A stretch of 21,326 bases of DNA from a virus: IMG/VR virus record IMGVR_UViG_3300021962_000765, positions 1 to 21,326 of that record, one strand, 5' to 3'. The notes under the pieces were generated by a model. That model was not told where the DNA came from. It made no database searches and saw only the letters and a program-made list of their open reading frames with translations. Shown piece by piece: positions 3,236 through 16,121 of this stretch. A program made the position numbers and the translations under genes. The stretch's first letter is position 1; each line of letters opens with the position of its first letter.

Positions 3236-3781
3236 ATGGCAACATTAGGAACGCAGAATATTTCAACCAGTTACGTCCAGCTAATGAAAACTAGCGGTCT
3301 TACTGGCATTGACGGCACGATCCAGACCATTACAGATGGCAATAATGTATCCTCTGCACTTCAGCTATCCACAGGAGGCGTGAGTAGCACAGGTTCCCTT
3401 TCTGTTACTGGTGTGGCTACAGTTGGCAGTCTTGAGATTGGCGGTTCGGCAGGGCCAACGCTTACAAAGGTGTCCTATGGAACCGCAGCGTTTACTGGCT
3501 CTACATTCCAAGACCTAGACTCGGCTACAGCGGGGTCAAATGTTACAACAGGAACATTTGCGGTAACAGGCGCAGCCTTGGGAGACATCGTCTTTGGTGG
3601 GCTTACATCAATTGGCTCAAGCACAGGAACAAACGCTACCTTAGCCCAAAGGCTAATCCCTTCGTTTAGGGTTGAATCGGCAGATACGATTCGATATGTA
3701 ATACTTAATACAGATACAATTTCCCACGGCACAACTCCCGCAGGAACGCTATACGCAACCGCAATGAGGTTTACAGCATGA
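3236..3781 (+). CDS. Tail fibre stem/structural protein
   Basis: The product has 181 residues, with ribosome site AGGAGA at 3225-3230. The sequence is low in charge and rich in Gly, Thr, Ser and Val. Residues about 26-72 read as stacked short strands (ITDGNNVSSALQLSTGGVS; GSLSVTGVATVGSLEIGGS), the usual pattern of trimeric fibre shafts. The C-terminal half is a denser beta domain ending in LYATAMRFTA. It shares ATGA with the following repeat-rich fibre gene, so the two are probably made together and may form parts of one host-recognition appendage. No catalytic motif is visible. Confidence 0.65.
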   Translation: MATLGTQNISTSYVQLMKTSGLTGIDGTIQTITDGNNVSSALQLSTGGVSSTGSLSVTGVATVGSLEIGGSAGPTLTKVSYGTAAFTGSTFQDLDSATAGSNVTTGTFAVTGAALGDIVFGGLTSIGSSTGTNATLAQRLIPSFRVESADTIRYVILNTDTISHGTTPAGTLYATAMRFTA

Positions 3782-5418
3782 GTAAATTTAACGCAGGTCA
3801 ATCTTTCGCTGATGGCGATACAGTAACAGGCGCAAAGCTAAACAACATTGCTGGCCTACTAGACATTTATACTGGTCTAATATCCGAGCAAACAGCAATG
3901 GTTGCAACTGTCAGCACGGCAGATCAACTTCTTATTGCAGATGTGGATAACGGAGATAGTGGCGCGGCCAATCGCGTGACAGTTCAGAAGCTGTTAAACG
4001 ATGGTTTGACCAATGGAACTTTTTCAAACCTAAGCTTAACTGGCAACTTAAATGTCACACAGCTTTCTACCCTTGGAACGATAAACAATACCAGGGGTAC
4101 AGTTGGCATTCTAAATAGCACAACTGGAACAATTCAGTCTCTTACATCTAGTACGGCCAACATTAGCCAAGGATCAGCCATATTTACTCAAGGCACGATT
4201 AACACGCTTAACAGTACTACAGGAACGATTGGAACGCTTAACAATACCACTGGAACGATTGGCACTCTGAATAGTACTACTGGAACAATTGCTACGCTTG
4301 TAGCAACAAATAATGCCACCATTAACGGAGTAAGTGTTGGTAAGGGCGGAGGAAACATAGTTGGCAATACAGTTCTTGGGGCAAGTGCGTTAGCAACAAG
4401 TACAACTGGATCTCAAAATACAGCCATTGGGGCTAGCGCACTTAATGCAAACACGGCTGGATCTCAAAATACAGCTATTGGATTAAGTGCATTAGTATCA
4501 AATACAACTGGTGCTAGAAATACTTCAAGCGGTGTAAATACACTAGCATATAACACAACTGGATATGATAATGTTGCTGCTGGCATGAACGCACTCGTTT
4601 TAAATACAACTGGATTTAACAACGTAGGGATTGGGTCAAGCGCACTTTCGGGAAATACAACTGGAAATAACAATACGGCTGTTGGAGCAAGTTCACTTGT
4701 GGCAAACACAACTGGAAATATCAATACGGCTGTTGGATCAAGTTCACTTGGCTCAAATACAACAGGATCATTTAACACGGCTGTTGGAATCAATTCTTTA
4801 GTAGCCAATACAACCGCAATTAGAAACACAGCCGTGGGCGCGAACGCTTTATTTGCCAATACGAGTGGAGAGGGCAACACGGCTGTTGGGTCAAATGTTA
4901 GTCAAGCAAACACAACTGGATCATTTAATACAGTAGTTGGTACATTTGCGGCTCAAAATAACTCAACTGGAAACAATAATACTGTTGTTGGATATGACGC
5001 GTTGCGCGTCAACACAACTGGAGAAAATAATACGGCATATGGAGTCAGTGCGCTTCGAAACAATACAACTGGATCATATAATGTGGCTGCTGGCATGAGC
5101 GCACTTTATGCAAATACAACTGGATCATATAACACGGCTAGTGGTTATCAAGCTGGACAAACAATTACAATTGGAACAGGAAACGTTTGCATAGGTGCAA
5201 CATCAGATGTTAGTATTGGAACAATATCTAACGCAATTTCAATTGGATACGGAGCAACTGCTCAATTAAATGGAGAAATTGCACTTGGAACAACTCTTTC
5301 AACCAAAACAACTATTGGCGCAAATGGTGCGGCATCGGCACTTACGGCAGTTCCAGTAGGATATATTAGAATCAGAATTGGTGCTACTGCATATCAAATT
5401 CCATATTACAACGTATAA
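3778..5418 (+). CDS. Tail fibre/adhesin with 17-residue YadA-head-like repeats
   Basis: The protein has 546 residues. The N-terminus (FNAGQSFADGDTVTGAKLN) matches the common attachment segment of phage fibres (F-x-x-G-x-x-V-T-x-x-x-L-N). Residues about 107-178 contain degenerate 10-residue repeats of the form GTIGTLNSTT. Residues 208-462 are fifteen exact-length 17-residue repeats, NTTG-x-x-NTAVG-x-x-[AS]L-x-x, which resemble the left-handed parallel beta-roll of YadA-type trimeric adhesin heads. The C-terminus (VGYIRIRIGATAYQIPYY) is a typical phage fibre tip ending. It probably forms a trimer that contacts the host surface. It overlaps the preceding stem gene by ATGA. Confidence 0.8.
   Translation: MSKFNAGQSFADGDTVTGAKLNNIAGLLDIYTGLISEQTAMVATVSTADQLLIADVDNGDSGAANRVTVQKLLNDGLTNGTFSNLSLTGNLNVTQLSTLGTINNTRGTVGILNSTTGTIQSLTSSTANISQGSAIFTQGTINTLNSTTGTIGTLNNTTGTIGTLNSTTGTIATLVATNNATINGVSVGKGGGNIVGNTVLGASALATSTTGSQNTAIGASALNANTAGSQNTAIGLSALVSNTTGARNTSSGVNTLAYNTTGYDNVAAGMNALVLNTTGFNNVGIGSSALSGNTTGNNNTAVGASSLVANTTGNINTAVGSSSLGSNTTGSFNTAVGINSLVANTTAIRNTAVGANALFANTSGEGNTAVGSNVSQANTTGSFNTVVGTFAAQNNSTGNNNTVVGYDALRVNTTGENNTAYGVSALRNNTTGSYNVAAGMSALYANTTGSYNTASGYQAGQTITIGTGNVCIGATSDVSIGTISNAISIGYGATAQLNGEIALGTTLSTKTTIGANGAASALTAVPVGYIRIRIGATAYQIPYYNV
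4192..4311 (+). repeat. 30-bp coding repeats in tail fibre shaft (about 4 units)
   Basis: Four tandem 30-base units encode GTINTLNSTT, GTIGTLNNTT, GTIGTLNSTT and GTIATLVATN. More divergent units lie upstream at 4096-4155 (GTVGILNSTT, GTIQSLTSST). Length is strictly kept while synonymous bases vary, so selection acts on the protein period. They probably form a coiled or beta-solenoid shaft. Confidence 0.85.
4399..5163 (+). repeat. 51-bp tandem coding repeats in tail fibre (15 units)
   Basis: Fifteen consecutive 51-base units start at 4399 and each encodes 17 residues. The core NTTG..NTAVG..[AS]L is kept, and the two residues after NTTG (SQ, AR, YD, FN, NN, NI, SF, IR, EG, EN, SY) and after each VG vary. 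A further divergent unit may precede it at 4348-4398. No unit is out of register. The variable positions recur at fixed points of the period, as expected for surface residues of a beta-roll. Confidence 0.9.
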
Positions 5419-9064: not shown

Positions 9065-11065
9065 ATGGCACAAAGGACATCAGCAAAAAAACTAGCGGAC
9101 AATGCCGCAGCAGCAGCACAAAAAGCGGCAGCTAAAGCAGATCCAAATCAAGCATTTTTTGATAAGTACACTGCTCTCGGTCTTACCAATCCTGCAAGCT
9201 ATGTTACAAGAGGAAAGTTTGACGAGGAAAAGGCCCAAACAGATATAATTAAAAATGTATATAAACTTGATCCAAAAGTATATACAAGCAAAAATTTTAA
9301 TGAAGCCACAACAAAATATCAATTTGAACAACCCAAGATTACTGCACCAGCAAAAAAGGCAACAAATTTTCAAACTGCTGTAAATAATTATTCGGACGTA
9401 TTGTCAAAAGCACAGGAAATTGGAATAGCAAATTTAAATGCAGTAGATCAAAAAGCCATCAAGGCTGCCGCAGAAAGAATTAGATTTTTTGCCCCAGATA
9501 ATCCAACAGATAATGTAAAAACACTTCTTGCAAATGTAATGGCTGCGTCAGATCAGCTTGATAGCATTAATGCAAAAAGGGAAGATGTTGCGACTTATCA
9601 GGCAAAAGTTAATTCAAAATTACGCGGTAAGGCCAAGGGAGATGCGCTAACTAAGCTTGAAACGGCGCAAGGCGAACTTGCAAATTTACAAAGAAATACA
9701 ACAAATAAATCCCCTTATCTTATAGAATCCTTAGCAAAACTTAGGCTTTCTGATTATGGCATAAGTGGATATGGTGCTGGCGGGGATACAACTGGTGGAG
9801 GGACTGTAACAGGAGGAGGAGTTACAACAGGAGGTGGAGTTACAACTGGAGGAGGGACAGCAACTGGCGGCGGGACATCCATTTCTACTATTGGCAGTGC
9901 CGTTAATGCTCTTGGGTCTGGTTCGCTTGTTCTTGGCAACAATTTACTTGGCAAGTTAAATACAGAAGTAACGGATGCTCAGGCTTTAAGTGGTATTAAT
10001 GACGCAACAAAGACAGCGTATGCAAAATACTTTGATCTTGCGACAACAGCAGCAACTGATTTAACAAGTAAAATTGCTTCTGCTACAGATATTTTAAATA
10101 ATATCCCCGAAAAGAATACTGTTGAAAGGGCAAGAGTAACTACAGCTATTGAAGGATTTAAAACTGAACTTACAAAAGTTCAGGGATATGCTGTTAAGGC
10201 AAAGGGTCTTCTTGATAATTACAAGCCACTTACTGGCGATGCCGCAGCAACCGCTGTGTCTAATTTCAGGGAAACACTTCGCCTTCCAGAAGAACGCACA
10301 ATCAAGCAGATTGAGGAAATAGATCCTACTGTTGGTGCAACTGCTCGCGCCCTTTCTAAACAGTATCAAACTATGGCGGAGACTCCTCTGGGTCCAACCA
10401 CAACCAAGCAGACTGAAGACCTTCGCAATCAAATTGAGCAAGAAGCAATCAATCAGCTTAAACTTGGTTCAACTCTTGGTGCTGAAGAACGCCGTCAGTA
10501 TGAGCAAGCAACTAGGTCAGCGCAGTCTGCTCGCGGAAACATTTTTGGACTTGGACCAGCAGTGCAAGAAGCAGCCAATATCGGTGCTGCCGCAGAACAG
10601 CGTAAGCTTGCACGCTATGGCGCAGCCGCTGCTTTCCTTGGTTCTGGAGAGACAACTGGTGCGGCCACAGCGCGCGATCTTGGTCTTCGCAATGCCTTGG
10701 ATCAATCCCGCCTTGGCGCGGCTCAAGGCTTTATTGCAAGCGGTCCTACGCTGTACAACTTGGCCTCACAGCGTCTTGGAGAGCAGCAGGGTATGCTCAA
10801 CAACTATCTTGCAGCCTCACAACCGCTACAGACTGGCCAGTTCCAAGGTGCTTCTTCAGCAGCCAATCCTTACGGATATGTTAACCCCAACGCTGGATTC
10901 CTTGGTGCGCAGAATGCGGCGGATATAATGAGAACTCAATATAATTATGCTCAAGGAGTCTTTGGCTCGCAGGTTGGCGCACTTGCCAGTCAGCCAAGCG
11001 GAGCGCAGAACTTTGGAGCAATTGCTTCTGGTATTGGTTCGTTGATGCCAAACATAAGCATTTAA
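9065..11065 (+). CDS. Internal virion/core protein (gp15 position), mosaic
   Basis: The protein has 666 residues, is Ala-rich and largely helical. Residues 1-235 are Lys/Asn-rich with AT-rich codons, and residues 243-272 are a Gly/Thr linker of five 6-residue units (TGGGTV/TGGGVT type). Residues about 280-395 form helices. Residues about 395-666 are a GC-richer, Ala/Gln-rich module (RTIKQIEEIDPTVGATARAL; QATRSAQSARGNIFG) ending in PNISI. A 60-base sample at 9241-9300 has 10 G+C and one at 10681-10740 has 33, so the two ends have different histories. It lies between a small core protein and a gp16-like protein, fitting a DNA-ejection component. Confidence 0.65.
   Translation: MAQRTSAKKLADNAAAAAQKAAAKADPNQAFFDKYTALGLTNPASYVTRGKFDEEKAQTDIIKNVYKLDPKVYTSKNFNEATTKYQFEQPKITAPAKKATNFQTAVNNYSDVLSKAQEIGIANLNAVDQKAIKAAAERIRFFAPDNPTDNVKTLLANVMAASDQLDSINAKREDVATYQAKVNSKLRGKAKGDALTKLETAQGELANLQRNTTNKSPYLIESLAKLRLSDYGISGYGAGGDTTGGGTVTGGGVTTGGGVTTGGGTATGGGTSISTIGSAVNALGSGSLVLGNNLLGKLNTEVTDAQALSGINDATKTAYAKYFDLATTAATDLTSKIASATDILNNIPEKNTVERARVTTAIEGFKTELTKVQGYAVKAKGLLDNYKPLTGDAAATAVSNFRETLRLPEERTIKQIEEIDPTVGATARALSKQYQTMAETPLGPTTTKQTEDLRNQIEQEAINQLKLGSTLGAEERRQYEQATRSAQSARGNIFGLGPAVQEAANIGAAAEQRKLARYGAAAAFLGSGETTGAATARDLGLRNALDQSRLGAAQGFIASGPTLYNLASQRLGEQQGMLNNYLAASQPLQTGQFQGASSAANPYGYVNPNAGFLGAQNAADIMRTQYNYAQGVFGSQVGALASQPSGAQNFGAIASGIGSLMPNISI
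9791..9880 (+). repeat. 18-bp Gly/Thr-linker repeats (5 units)
   Basis: Five in-register 18-base units encode TGGGTV, TGGGVT, TGGGVT, TGGGTA and TGGGTS. They form a flexible linker within the 666-residue core protein and mark the edge of the AT-rich N-terminal part. Confidence 0.9.
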
Positions 11066-11073
11066 GGAGATTT

Positions 11074-11820
11074 ATGGGCAAAATTACAATGGATTTGGCG
11101 GCGATGTTTCCTCAAACTTTTGGGGATCAAGACGCATTACGCAGGGCTGCCACTGCCGAACAACTCCAGAATGCTCAGTTAAATTCGTACATGCAGAATC
11201 AACAGGAGAAGGATGTAATAAGGTCAAATCAAGTCTTGCCATTTGAAGACTTTAAGATTGATGTAAATGGAGAGCAGATTCCATTTAAGGCATTGCCGCC
11301 AGAGCAGAAAACGCAATGGGCAAAACAACGCCAAGTTGATTGGCAGCTAGAGCAATCAAAAAAGTTTACAAAGTACCAAGCAGATATGGCCAAAGCCGAA
11401 GTTGAGCTTGAGCAAAATTTACAAAAGAAAGCAGATATACAATCAGCTAGGGGTGGCTTTATGGGCGGAGAGAAGCCTGGTCCAGATTTTCTGCCTGGTG
11501 CATTATTTGGAAAACCATACGCACAGCAAACTAGCGACATTGAGAAAAAAATAATGGAAACAGAACAACGCAGAAATGTTGCTGGAGTACAGATGCAGGC
11601 ATTACAAGACTCTCAAATGCCTCAAAGCTATGGGATGCCTTCGGTTGCAAAGCCTGCCGCACAGCAAGCAACAGCCCAGCCATCCGCACAGCCGCAAGCG
11701 CAGCCACAAACACAGCAAGCAGTTCCTACTTATAAATCAAGAGACGAGGCAATCCAAGGCGGGGCAAGGGCTGGGGATATTGTTTATATTCCAGGTGTCG
11801 GAAAAGTAAGGATAAAATAA
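11074..11820 (+). CDS. Coiled-coil virion protein with Pro/Gln/Ala linker and small C-terminal domain
   Basis: The product has 248 residues, with AAGGAG at 11064-11069. Residues about 85-130 form a long charged helix (KFTKYQADMAKAEVELEQN), and residues about 192-217 are a low-complexity AQP/QPQ linker. The last 30 residues (SRDEAIQGGARAGDIVYIPG, then VGKVRIK) form a small conserved-looking beta module seen at the ends of phage virion proteins. It lies between two ejection-type proteins, so a third internal or tail-associated component is likely. I do not recognise a specific family. Confidence 0.6.
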   Translation: MGKITMDLAAMFPQTFGDQDALRRAATAEQLQNAQLNSYMQNQQEKDVIRSNQVLPFEDFKIDVNGEQIPFKALPPEQKTQWAKQRQVDWQLEQSKKFTKYQADMAKAEVELEQNLQKKADIQSARGGFMGGEKPGPDFLPGALFGKPYAQQTSDIEKKIMETEQRRNVAGVQMQALQDSQMPQSYGMPSVAKPAAQQATAQPSAQPQAQPQTQQAVPTYKSRDEAIQGGARAGDIVYIPGVGKVRIK

Positions 11821-11824
11821 CACA

Positions 11825-14800
11825 ATGGCAAGTCCCGACTTGGGGTTTGACATTATTGAGCCAGAGGTAAAAGCAGATCAGCAAGATGCTGGCTATGACG
11901 TAATTGAGCCAGAAAACGCCCAACCAACGCCATCGGAATTATTTGAAGTAATTGAACCAGACAAGCAATACTTGTCTCAAATCAAGCGCGACTACGTTTC
12001 TCAAGGTGGCAATCCGCTTGATGTGTACGCACCAGAGCGTGCAAACTTGCTTACCACCGAGTTTAATAAAAATCTTGAGTCTGGCCTGTCTCAAGAGGAT
12101 GCAATGCTCAAAGCAACTGATGCGCTTGAGGCAATGCCTCCAGAAACAAGGCCAGATGGGTCTATATCCGCAGGATACCTTCCAACTGAGGAAGCTATCC
12201 AAAAGGGAATGATACAACCAGCAGCGTTGCCAGCCGTCAGAAAGGCAATGAACGAAGGCGTGCTTACTGTATCCTCTGGATTTGATAAAGATAAAGGCGT
12301 TGGATTTGCTGTTGGGAAGGCAAAAGATGGGCGAGTTGTTCGTATTGAGGAAAAGCCACCAACGCTTGTTGGGGCATCGTTAAGGTCGGTTGGAGAACAG
12401 ATTATACCTGGTGCTAGTGCAGTTGCTGGATCAATCCTTGGCGGAGTTGCTGGCGCGCCAGCGGGGCCAGTTGGAATACTTGCTGGAGGATTGGCTGGTG
12501 GTGCTGCTGGATATAAAGCAGGCGAAATGGGGCAAGCTGGACTTGCAAGAATCTTGGCTGGCGAACAAGGTTACGCTGACTACCAAAGAATGCGCGAGGC
12601 CGATATTGCAATGTTCCCGATCACAACAAAGTCTCTTGAGATTGCTGCACCTATAGCTGTTAGTGCGGGACTCGCAGGACCAACAAAAGCTATCGATAAA
12701 TTTCAACAATTGTTGCAGCCCAAAGCTGTCCCGTCATTGCAGGCAAAGCCACAACCATCAGAGGTTATTGCAACTATTGAAGGCCAGCAGCCAATTCGCC
12801 AAGGCGTAGTTGGCGAGGCTGGATTTGAGTCTGGCACAGTGCGTCCAGAGTTTAAGATGCCAGAAGTTCCAGGGGGATCTAAAATTGCAAGAACGGCTGA
12901 ACGAGTGTTGAAGTCCGAGAAAGCACCAGAGCCATTCAAAGCAGAAGTTGCGCTTCAGCCAAGCACAGTAAGAGCGAATGTTCCGCTGGGTGCTATTAAG
13001 GGGAACCTTGAAGACCTTACAGATGACGAGCTGAATGTTATTGCAAGAAGAAGCATTACTTCGTCAGCGTATGATGATGCCGAAAGGGCAGGGGCAAATG
13101 CAATACTAGCCGCAAGGCAGATTGATGCAGACCCAGCATCTGCCGCGATCAATTGGGATGAGTTTACAAAAGCAGCATCGCTGGCTGGCGTTTCTTTGAG
13201 GAATGTGCGCGAGTATCTAAGCACGCCTGCTGGGTATTTGGCAACCATATCAAAGGCAGCGGAGGCGGCTAAGAGAAATATACCCAAAGACGTAAGTGAC
13301 GAGGTTCTTAGATTATTTAATGTAAGTAAAAATGCAAAAGCCGAATTGGTTAAAGCGGAAGCAAATTACAGATCAAGCTTAACCGATAGGGCTGCTGCTA
13401 TTGCTGAAAACGCAAGAAGGGCGGCAGCAAGCGCGGCAACAAAACTTCAAAGATATTCAGACAGCATTTTTCCAAAGAAAATTCTTGGAGAAACACTTCC
13501 GCAGGGAATACAGATTACACTATTAAGTCCATTATCTCTCGTTAAGAATCCAGTATTTAACGTAGCCAGAGCAGTAGGCCAGCTTGGTGTGAGATCACTA
13601 GCAAACGCTGGAGATGCAGTGTTGAGTTTTGTTGCAAAACAGAGGGCTGTCTTGGGTGGAAAAACACAAGAAGAAATAGCAAGGGCTGGTCAAAGGACGA
13701 TGGCACAATCTTTGCTTACAACAAGAGGAGCAATGATTCGTGGAACTGAAAAGACAAAAGAAGCAATTCGAGCATTCCTTGGTGAAGGCATTCCAGAGTC
13801 ATCAGCATTGGCTGGTGAGGGGGTGAAGGGATTTACGGTATTCAAATCTTTAGCACAAGCATTTACTGGAAAGGATATGGTTACAAATGCAAAAGGAAAC
13901 ATTGCTCTTATTGATCGCGTGCGAAAGCTTACTGAGGGAATAATTGGATTATATACTGAGCCAGTAGGCAGGGCATTAACTCTTGGTGACGTTCCAGCCA
14001 GAGGATTTGCAGAGGGAAGACTTCTAGCAGAGCAGGCTATTTTAGCTGGAAAATCGCCAAAGGAAGTTTTTGCAAGCGTGAGATTCCCCACGAAGACAGA
14101 GCTAAAAGCAATATCAAACAAGGCAGCAGAGGCAACATTTCAGCAGGACACAAAGCTTACGGCAGTAGTTGGTGTTGTTGCAAATGCGGTAAAAGCTGTT
14201 CCTATTGTTGGTCCGCTAACTAAAGCAGTCGTTGCTCCATATACAAAAACACCAGTTAATGTTGTTACAGATGTTGTTGATGTTGCAGTGCCAGGACTGG
14301 CCTTTTCCAAAAGCGCGTATTATGCAGTTAAAGGAGACAGAAAAAAATCACTTGAAGCTGCGGCGAAAGGAATAGTCGGAACAGTAATTGGAGGTACGGC
14401 CGCTGCCTTGTATCGCGCTGGTGTTATTACTGGATCTGCCTCGAAGTCTGCAAAAGAGCGAGGAATCCAATACGAAACACAGCCTCCTAATACTATCAAT
14501 ATGTCTGGATTAAATAGACTATTGAATGGCGAAGATCCAGCAATCCAGGCTGGTGACGATATAAAGAGCTATGAGAATTTTGGTTATCTTGGAACAATCT
14601 TTAACGTCTATGCAAATGTACTAAGCAAGAATGAAGGCTCTGGACTGCTAGAGGATGTTCTTGATGTAACTCTTAAAGGTTTGCCGTCAGTTGCAAGCTA
14701 TACGCTCAACCAAACATTCTTGAAGAGTACAAACACTCTTCTTAATGCAATTTCAAAAGAAGACTATGATAGTTATTTAGAGTCTTTGTACGGGACAATA

Positions 14801-15388
14801 TCATCGATTCCATTTCCGAACACATTGCAAGCCTTCAATAAGGCAAGCCGCGAGAATATGGTCGACCTAAAAACTGATGATAGCTTGCAACTATTCGCCA
14901 ATGTTCTTAAATCGAAGATGCCAGAGTTTGCACGCGAGGCTATTGGCGCAGAAGAGTTGCCACTCAAAAGAGATATGTGGGGGAATCCAGTTAAGCAGAC
15001 CCCAGAAGGAGCGAATCCGTTTCTATACAATTTCCTTGATTTCACTAGGTCAAGAATAGTCCCAAGTGACGAATCCAATCTTGCCCTATATAGGCTATGG
15101 AAAGAAACTGGAAATGCTGATGCCTTGCCATCCGTTCCGTCAAGGAATGTTATGGATAAGAAAATCACTTACCAGCTTGATGAGAGCCAGTATGCAATCT
15201 ACCAAGAGTATGTCGGCCAAAGAAGGAAGGCTCTTGTGGATAATCTATTCCAGAGCGCAACATTTGATGGAATGGATGCAGACTTCAAGATTAAGGCATT
15301 GGGCAAGGCGTATGAGCGTGGTGCTGAAGATGGCAAAAGACAGTTCTTGAAATACAATAGGGATTATTTGACACCAAAGGAGAAATAA
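11825..15388 (+). CDS. Large internal ejection protein (T7 gp16-like position, polyvalent)
   Basis: The protein has 1187 residues, a size like T7 gp16. Residues 7-13, 23-29 and 39-45 carry GFDIIEP, GYDVIEP and LFEVIEP, spaced exactly 16 apart. Residues about 195-238 are a glycine-zipper, membrane-active stretch (VAGSILGGVAGAPAGPVGIL), and residues about 494-545 are a coiled-coil candidate. Residues about 777-872 contain further hydrophobic segments, with TKTPVNV and KGIVGTVIGGTAAALYRAG, which recall conserved C-terminal regions of large phage polyvalent proteins. No transglycosylase motif is visible; the muramidase is encoded separately downstream. It probably enters the cell envelope with the DNA and forms part of the translocation channel. 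Confidence 0.7.
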   Translation: MASPDLGFDIIEPEVKADQQDAGYDVIEPENAQPTPSELFEVIEPDKQYLSQIKRDYVSQGGNPLDVYAPERANLLTTEFNKNLESGLSQEDAMLKATDALEAMPPETRPDGSISAGYLPTEEAIQKGMIQPAALPAVRKAMNEGVLTVSSGFDKDKGVGFAVGKAKDGRVVRIEEKPPTLVGASLRSVGEQIIPGASAVAGSILGGVAGAPAGPVGILAGGLAGGAAGYKAGEMGQAGLARILAGEQGYADYQRMREADIAMFPITTKSLEIAAPIAVSAGLAGPTKAIDKFQQLLQPKAVPSLQAKPQPSEVIATIEGQQPIRQGVVGEAGFESGTVRPEFKMPEVPGGSKIARTAERVLKSEKAPEPFKAEVALQPSTVRANVPLGAIKGNLEDLTDDELNVIARRSITSSAYDDAERAGANAILAARQIDADPASAAINWDEFTKAASLAGVSLRNVREYLSTPAGYLATISKAAEAAKRNIPKDVSDEVLRLFNVSKNAKAELVKAEANYRSSLTDRAAAIAENARRAAASAATKLQRYSDSIFPKKILGETLPQGIQITLLSPLSLVKNPVFNVARAVGQLGVRSLANAGDAVLSFVAKQRAVLGGKTQEEIARAGQRTMAQSLLTTRGAMIRGTEKTKEAIRAFLGEGIPESSALAGEGVKGFTVFKSLAQAFTGKDMVTNAKGNIALIDRVRKLTEGIIGLYTEPVGRALTLGDVPARGFAEGRLLAEQAILAGKSPKEVFASVRFPTKTELKAISNKAAEATFQQDTKLTAVVGVVANAVKAVPIVGPLTKAVVAPYTKTPVNVVTDVVDVAVPGLAFSKSAYYAVKGDRKKSLEAAAKGIVGTVIGGTAAALYRAGVITGSASKSAKERGIQYETQPPNTINMSGLNRLLNGEDPAIQAGDDIKSYENFGYLGTIFNVYANVLSKNEGSGLLEDVLDVTLKGLPSVASYTLNQTFLKSTNTLLNAISKEDYDSYLESLYGTISSIPFPNTLQAFNKASRENMVDLKTDDSLQLFANVLKSKMPEFAREAIGAEELPLKRDMWGNPVKQTPEGANPFLYNFLDFTRSRIVPSDESNLALYRLWKETGNADALPSVPSRNVMDKKITYQLDESQYAIYQEYVGQRRKALVDNLFQSATFDGMDADFKIKALGKAYERGAEDGKRQFLKYNRDYLTPKEK
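11843..11959 (+). other. Three-copy [GL]-[FY]-[DE]-[IV]-I-E-P motif, N-terminus of ejection protein
   Basis: The three copies (GFDIIEP, GYDVIEP, LFEVIEP) start at residues 7, 23 and 39, so the period is 16 residues (48 bases), followed each time by an acidic residue. The intervening sequences are not conserved, which points to a short linear motif rather than a folded repeat domain. The same motif recurs in the next gene product at 15531-15551. Confidence 0.8.
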
Positions 15389-15389
15389 A

Positions 15390-16121
15390 ATGGAACGCTA
15401 CGAAAAGATGATGCAGGCAAACATACCGAAGCCTAGTGTTGCTCCAGTTCAGCAGCCAATTGTACGGCAGGCACAACCTATCAATAATCAAATTGAGAGC
15501 GTCACGCCAGAACAACCTAAAACTGATCTTGGTTATGATGTTATTGAGCCAGGTGGTGTGGGAAGCAATACCTTTGGATTTGATTTGATAAATGCAGCTA
15601 AAACAACAGTAAATTGGGAAGGCCGAAGAGATAAGAAAGGTAATCTTTCGGTATATGCCTTGCCTGCTGGTGATATGGGCGGAGATTATGAGGTAGCTGG
15701 AATCAATGACCGATACCATCCAGAAGCATTCAGAAGGATTGCAGGCTTGCCAGCCCAAGATAGGGAGGAAGCGGCCGCAAAATACATCAGTGAATATACA
15801 GCCCCTCTTGTGTCAAGGCTTCCACAGGCAATTCAGCCATTCGCCCAGGATATGGCGTTTAATAGAGGAATGGGCGGTGCAACAAAGTATATCCAAGAGG
15901 GACTAAATTCACTTGGCGTTAAGGTTGCTGTTGACGGAGCCATTGGGCCAAAAACTCTTGCTGCTATTGGAGGAGTAAATCCAAAGCAACTTATGATTGC
16001 GGCGAGCCAAGCGCAATTGAACGATGAAAGAGCCAGGGCTGGTGCTGACCCAAGGAGAAAGAAGTTTATTGTTGGTCTTGAAAACAGAATCAACAACAGA
16101 CTTAGCGCATTTGGGGGGTAG
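15390..16121 (+). CDS. Virion-associated muramidase, GH108-like with peptidoglycan-binding C-terminus
   Basis: The product has 243 residues, with AAGGAG at 15377-15382. Residues 1-70 are a Pro/Gln-rich tail that carries GYDVIEP (48-54) and a weaker GFDLIN (63-68). The catalytic region starts at NWEG with Glu77 as the probable acid, then DMGGDYEVAGIND (95-107), as in GH108 lysozymes (E-G-G...D-x-G-G-x-T-x-x-G-I). DMAFNRG (154-160) and VDGAIGPKTLAAI (181-193) form the peptidoglycan-binding part. It would cut the glycan strands locally during DNA entry, or act at lysis. Its place directly after the ejection protein and the shared motif favour a virion role. No signal peptide is seen. Confidence 0.75.
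   Translation: MERYEKMMQANIPKPSVAPVQQPIVRQAQPINNQIESVTPEQPKTDLGYDVIEPGGVGSNTFGFDLINAAKTTVNWEGRRDKKGNLSVYALPAGDMGGDYEVAGINDRYHPEAFRRIAGLPAQDREEAAAKYISEYTAPLVSRLPQAIQPFAQDMAFNRGMGGATKYIQEGLNSLGVKVAVDGAIGPKTLAAIGGVNPKQLMIAASQAQLNDERARAGADPRRKKFIVGLENRINNRLSAFGG
15531..15593 (+). other. Shared IEP motif copies in the muramidase N-terminal tail
   Basis: GYDVIEP lies at residues 48-54 and a degenerate GFDLIN at residues 63-68, 15 residues apart. The first is identical to the second copy in the preceding 1187-residue ejection protein. The catalytic region begins only at about residue 74, so the motif sits in a flexible, non-catalytic tail. Confidence 0.75.

Follow-up and report, generated by a model that had tools for sequence, protein, structure and literature searches.

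The locus raises the question of why a large phage ejection protein and the peptidoglycan hydrolase encoded beside it should carry the same short motif in their tails. The window, meaning the whole stretch of DNA that was analysed, is a virus record of 21,326 bases (G000). The two genes and their motif copies, hereafter called tags, are located as follows:

11825..15388, + strand: BIG, large ejection protein remotely related to the T7-type internal virion protein D (gp16), from hhalign
11846..11863, + strand: tag copy 1, FDIIEP, BIG residues 8–13, from the sequence
11894..11911, + strand: tag copy 2, YDVIEP, BIG residues 24–29, from the sequence
11942..11959, + strand: tag copy 3, FEVIEP, BIG residues 40–45, from the sequence
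15390..16121, + strand: MUR, N-acetylmuramidase-like peptidoglycan hydrolase, from PG_binding_3 and an endolysin PHROG
15534..15551, + strand: muramidase-tail tag, YDVIEP, MUR residues 49–54, from the sequence

The Proteins That Carry the Tags

A profile of five BIG relatives was compared by hhalign with an internal virion protein D profile made from contig L251 and from Pelagibacter, Roseobacter, Desulfovibrio and Synechococcus phages. The two aligned over 401 columns in the C-terminal part (probability 98.6, E 9.4e-16), a remote homology that bears out an earlier note on this DNA, where the protein was taken for a large ejection protein. The large protein of L251 is itself a homologue of internal virion protein D. 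No direct match to BIG was found in PHROGs, Pfam, PDB or INPHARED. Pfam detected no hydrolase domain in BIG, so there is no N-terminal transglycosylase as in T7 gp16; the hydrolase is a separate, adjoining gene. In its product MUR, PF09374 (PG_binding_3) scored over the gathering threshold, E77 in the catalytic Glu region was invariant across the alignment, and the NCBIfam muramidase model gave a partial match under its cut-off. These are the features of a GH108/PG_binding_3 N-acetylmuramidase, and MUR is a putative enzyme of this kind.

Muramidase relatives with 40–45% identity and no tagged tail were present in contigs L185–L196, from Spartobacteria and other Verrucomicrobia MAGs, which may hint at the hosts or at lateral transfer. 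The BIG proteins of L016, L020, L028 and L049/L172 (1382–1385 aa) had about 210 additional residues ahead of the equivalent of BIG residue 319. Elsewhere in the window, positions 3778–5418 encode a 546-aa protein with many NTTGSxNTAVGxxAL-type repeats resembling those of trimeric adhesin heads; it is likely an appendage.

Copies and Spacing of the Tag

The 1187-aa BIG protein opens with MASPDLGFDIIEPEVKADQQDAGYDVIEPENAQPTPSELFEVIEPDKQ. Its three cores share the pattern [FY][DE][IV]IEP and are spaced by exactly 16 residues (G7, G23 and L39; the codons from G7 to P45 occupy 11843–11959), and MUR residues 48–54 read GYDVIEP, identical to the second copy. The periodic motif and its identical counterpart in MUR, both described in the earlier note, are thus present. 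When the first 60 residues of BIG were shuffled 200,000 times, at least one copy appeared in 41 shuffles, and two or three copies in none. Among 7,655 non-redundant ORFs of the collected loci (1.66 million aa), 28 contained at least two matches to [FY][DE][VIL][IVL]EP within 60 aa, every one near the N-terminus.

Other details of that description need revision. The core holds in all three BIG copies, but the glycine said to precede it is replaced by leucine in copy 3. The 16-residue spacing is exact in BIG but not among relatives, where in clades B and C it is about 10; because spacing differs among clades, a structural-repeat reading was rejected. Judged from these sequences, neither the glycine nor the spacing is essential to the tag. 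A weaker copy attributed to the muramidase, GFDLINA, turned out to be no tag but the start, or variable edge, of the conserved catalytic region, with NFD, NVD or NND in relatives.

Concerted Switching of Tag Type

Relatives of BIG and MUR were gathered from IMG/VR. Their tags fall into five clades:

Clade A: three G[FY]D[IV]IEP in BIG; the same motif in the muramidase
Clade B: three EFVPD in BIG; QFVPD in the muramidase
Clade C: GYEV(L/I) in BIG; GYEII in the muramidase
Clade D: GYEVIE in BIG; GYEIIE in the muramidase
Clade E: LEFVPE in BIG; LEFIPE in the muramidase

Copy number and spacing vary, and the kind of tag was always the same in the BIG and MUR of one phage. The true pairing of BIG and MUR clades was equalled in 2 of 120 permutations, itself included (five clades, of which B and E have a common tag type). 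In each of eight tagged genome contigs of 33–41 kb (ORFs of at least 40 aa), BIG and MUR both had the contig's own type of tag; three of the contigs also had isolated near-matches to a tag pattern in other places. According to the earlier note, homologues lacking the motif would speak against a tag. The homologues do bear other motifs, yet in each phage both proteins bear the same one. The concerted change of type is what a short linear motif common to the variable acidic tails of an ejection protein and its adjacent muramidase, acting as if on one partner, would produce, and in this the note's central idea was supported.

A Candidate Receptor in the Upstream Protein

The tag type is matched in the gene preceding BIG, in the following region of the window:

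9065..11065, + strand: 666-aa upstream protein in the presumed ejection module, 99% identical across differing tag types
11074..11820, + strand: ORF7, 248-aa protein bearing the mini-domain, from the ORF and its relatives
11644..11721, + strand: linker rich in Q, P and A ahead of the mini-domain, probably flexible, from its sequence and its length variation in relatives
11722..11817, + strand: candidate receptor, C-terminal mini-domain VPTYKSRDEAIQGGARAGDIVYIPGVGKVRIK, ORF7 residues 217–248, from co-variation, recurrence and predicted fold

The 666-aa protein is not the type-specific partner, because it is 99% identical in phages of different tag type. ORF7 belongs to no family in Pfam, PHROGs or NCBIfam and has no direct homologue in INPHARED. 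It ends in a mini-domain of about 30 aa whose final strand alters with the tag type. The ends ...GDIVYIPGVGKVRIK (type A), ...GDVITLQGVGKVRLK (type D) and ...GPAKVRLTR (type C) are paired with [FY][DE][VI][IL] tags, and the ends ...GDRVIIGGRAGTFKRPK (type B) and ...GQTVIIKGQRGTLQPKR (type E) with EFVP tags. Two types can be defined: V, a GVGKVR-type mini-domain with [FY][DE][VI][IL]E tags, and T, a GxxGT-type mini-domain with EFVP[DE] tags.

In 71 distinct ORF7/BIG/MUR sets, no mini-domain of one type was combined with tags of the other, a tally to be read as a description and not as a test, since the V and T profiles and the tag patterns were defined after the family had been seen. All 28 sets with a V-type mini-domain had V tags, 25 of them by pattern in both proteins; the others involve two MUR tags (clade D, GYEIIEG) and one BIG pair (L183, PYEVIEAE) outside the pattern. 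Tandem T tags accompanied half of the ten T-type mini-domains, the other five lacking tandem tags, and none of the 33 sets without a mini-domain was tagged. At the level of sequence, the switching involves three elements, and tag and candidate receptor types match across phages as those of a docking pair would. L122, L130, L140, L146 and L150 form a group with a T-like mini-domain in which the muramidase is untagged and BIG has no tandem tags, at most a lone F.P. close to its start.

Such T-like mini-domains (GDMVIIGGRRGILEP and similar) lie ahead of BIG in these five contigs and in L266, L288 and L317. The BIG that follows lacks tandem tags and has one N-terminal F.P.. or a similar motif (MAFRPLDGE, MGFLPDDQ), possibly a single-copy form of the tag.

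The mini-domain was not recognised by Pfam, PHROGs, NCBIfam or PDB, and short queries against INPHARED gave chance-like matches alone; a Salinibacter match was discarded, being located mid-protein. Its EAxxAGxKxGDxI segment resembles the alpha-A/beta-D segment of PDZ domains (DegP/DegQ), a local likeness of 10–13 residues (best E 0.0095) that is far too short for a claim of homology. The profile gave seven weak matches in 773 sampled bacterial genomes; their loci show no C-terminal mini-domain-like pattern, and therefore provide no prophage cases.

Natural Exchange between Two Genomes

Genomes G002 (type A) and G003 (type B) share genes that are mostly 95–100% identical, flanking structural genes included. 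Identity falls to 84% in ORF7, 86% in BIG and 80% in MUR. The divergent block is contiguous, starting at about ORF7 residue 129 and stopping near MUR. The lowest nucleotide identities within it are 42% in the mini-domain, 49% in the BIG tail and 40–52% in the MUR tail, with the exception of one BIG-internal stretch with a 48-base gap. As read from this alignment, the mini-domain and both tags have been swapped as one recombinant block between two genomes that are otherwise almost the same. Because the flanking structural genes are mostly 95–100% identical, ORF7 is the candidate for the type-specific partner, if a virion partner exists.

Recurrence in Unrelated Phages

Contig L068 was found by a scan for GYDVIEP and was not retrieved through similarity to BIG or MUR. 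One of its genes opens with AYDLLEP, GYDIIEP and GYDVIEP, and the gene just upstream has the C-terminus GDVIYLEGVGKVKLR, ending with TAKYQSEEAARTAGAKAGDVIYLEGVGKVKLR (V profile, E 6.7e-15). A type-blind scan for the mini-domain pattern EAxxAGxKxGD led to L341, where a protein ends with GDKVIINGVSGTLK (T 37 bits, V 23) and the following ORF opens with MDFVPDEPKKLEFVPDK. Of the 80 ORFs of at least 40 aa with an in-frame match to Y[DE]VIEP[DE] in a third scan, the one in L449 alone has tandem N-terminal tags (MPADYDVIEPEVAPATDYDVVEPE). The preceding ORF ends with GFKKGDKVRIKGVGLVQLR, the top V-profile match among 1,390 C-termini (E 1.3e-4; V 18.0, T 14.8 bits). The predicted pair of tag and mini-domain recurs, by these matches, in three unrelated phages, which are few and all metagenomic. 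The pair was not found in the T7-like Pelagibacter, Roseobacter, Desulfovibrio and Synechococcus phages inspected, which have an internal virion protein D. An ORF of L381 fitting the two-match tag pattern was rejected as a globular protein with unrelated matches, and in Vibrio phage 1.275.O, a distant relative of the L341 BIG, the junction differs.

The type-blind scan also retrieved L251/L261, where the mini-domain ends with ...GPDGTTYTVN and the next gene carries MANPFEGFATPTEKTNSFEGFAEP, and L243, where it ends with ...TPDGRIVYAP and is followed by DPWDAAGF...DPWSAAGF. Mini-domains with PDG...Y endings stand there (L243:6306-8200, L251:1-500 and L261) before genes with tandem NPFEGFA or DPW[DS]AAGF, probably a third tag type or further types. 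In untagged relatives and other podophages (L041:1619, L048/L158, L120/L125; Vibrio phage 1.275.O, L454:5600-5760), a different junction was observed. A hairpin-plus-helix module, for example MDIELPNGRVIQGVPDGTPKEEIM, opens BIG there, and the protein encoded before it has a short peptide (TGTVIKWDDL, KYNPKTGLLMK or GKYMTDPATGKVMRVK) at its end; possibly this is a docking pair of opposite polarity.

Predicted Structure of the Junction

A single stop is all that separates ORF7 from BIG in clade C, clade D and most of clade E, where the two share a reading frame, so read-through translation joins the mini-domain and the tags in one chain. This natural read-through of the ORF7 C-terminus and the BIG tail was given to AlphaFold. 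In the type E model (pTM 0.51), the mini-domain blocks had pLDDT values of 81–90 and the tag LEFVP formed a strand (block 79), the linker block reaching 52 and the second tag block 59. In the type D model (pTM 0.51), with a very short linker, the mini-domain blocks reached 89–90 and YEVLEP was a strand (blocks 87 and 76), the second tag being at 51. The fold predicted for the mini-domain of these relatives is beta-alpha-beta-beta. The first tag is predicted as a strand beside the mini-domain; the tether holds it near and may favour this placement. A Foldseek search of PDB with the type E model gave no fold match with E below 1, and none of the 50 matches listed was a PDZ fold by title.

A Model of Tag Docking and Its Alternatives

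We propose that the tags dock BIG and MUR on the ORF7 mini-domain in matched types, and we consider this likely; the binding is a candidate one, and virion location and function are inferred. In this model, ORF7 would be a small virion protein anchoring both clients. Its mini-domain, on a flexible linker, would bind the tag, probably as an added beta-strand. With two or three tags on BIG and one on MUR, both would be recruited to the same ORF7 assembly; sharing this socket, they would therefore be packaged and ejected together and co-assembled in the ejectosome, perhaps in a set order. A separate peptidoglycan hydrolase would be attached non-covalently where T7 gp16 has fused one, and tag and mini-domain would evolve, or be exchanged, as a matched set.

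The ORF7 C-terminus and the BIG N-terminus adjoin in the DNA and can travel together without interacting. It is thus conceivable, although we find it unlikely, that the ORF7 C-terminus and the BIG and muramidase tails are swapped as a block without any binding, the motifs being alike by descent or internal duplication. The contiguity of the G002/G003 exchange fits such a cassette, and so does the type B muramidase tag, which differs from BIG tag 1 at 1 of 21 bases (L035:4457-4477 vs L035:8124-8144) and could be a recent copy. Linkage explains least the muramidase tag, 3.5 kb off. In type A, moreover, BIG copy 2 and the MUR copy differ by silent codon changes (GGC/GGT, GAC/GAT, GTA/GTT) with the peptide kept; the 33 relatives devoid of the mini-domain are devoid of tags; and the three blind cases occurred in phages that had not come up among the relatives of these proteins.

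The earlier note had placed the partner in the portal, the core or the capsid interior. An invariant partner of this sort would agree with podophage ejection proteins sitting on the portal (PMC8954989, PMC11440229), but the tags follow the ORF7 mini-domain instead, and, despite the difference in tag type, G002 and G003 are about 95–100% identical in most of their remaining structural genes, the upstream neighbour of ORF7 among them; we regard such a partner as quite improbable.

Cleavage by a maturation protease, for which the processing permitted by the capsid targeting sequence of T4-type internal proteins offers a parallel (cited in PMC3012670), is hardly credible: the change from VIEP to FVPD keeps no single scissile residue, the muramidase copy lies mid-tail, and co-variation with a C-terminal mini-domain is left unexplained. 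Functionless expansion of low-complexity tails would suit their variable length and their richness in Pro, Gln, Ala and Glu, but is just as implausible given a motif retained while linkers change, its silent codon differences and the absence of two copies from 200,000 shuffles.

Returning to docking on ORF7, we lean towards a more general view, in which a type-matched code of tags and sockets would operate across unrelated podophages. N-terminal tags would dock several ejected proteins on the C-terminal mini-domain of a neighbour, in several exclusive types (YDVIEP, EFVPD and probably FEGFA/DPWxAAGF) with a junction exchangeable as a unit. Little is understood about how a podophage gathers its ejection proteins and wall-cutting enzymes in one ejectosome, and such proteins are hidden by sequence divergence. 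The code, if true, would allow ejection modules and virion-associated hydrolases to be found in uncultured phages by sequence, would make co-ejected proteins predictable and would supply small orthogonal docking pairs. Synthetic peptides and the 32-residue domain would allow a direct test.

Comparison with Known Systems

As described in PMC3012670, a short conserved sequence, the capsid targeting sequence (CTS), puts otherwise diverse internal proteins inside the T4 head. The present tags resemble it by that description; however, the CTS leads to the scaffolding core, whereas here tandem copies face a type-matched C-terminal mini-domain on a neighbour protein. In the T7 gp15–gp16 ejectosome, an extended gp16 segment (the "molecular tape", residues 157–228) cements gp15, and the gp16 N-terminus bears a peptidoglycan hydrolase (PMC8954989). 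Ejection proteins are joined there by an extended segment of gp16, to which BIG is remotely homologous, but the present phages have a separate hydrolase, a short repeated motif in place of the long segment and, as candidate partner, a C-terminal mini-domain of about 30 aa. In phage N4, the N-terminal domain of gp50 docks on the tunnel protein gp51, so that a large ejected protein is likewise associated via its N-terminal part; this is a domain and not a short tag, and the accessible text describes no tag shared with a hydrolase (PMC12633501). Our literature search, which covered few subscription journals, returned no paper describing such a pair of tag and mini-domain.

The docking domains of NRPS and PKS assembly lines combine a beta-hairpin domain with a C-terminal linear motif, in matched terminal pairs that bind by strand addition. 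The likeness lies in terminal pairs on neighbouring proteins, matched and exchangeable as a set, with binding by strand addition, which is here predicted. The biology is different, the motif is N-terminal and the domain C-terminal in the phages, and one domain would serve two clients.
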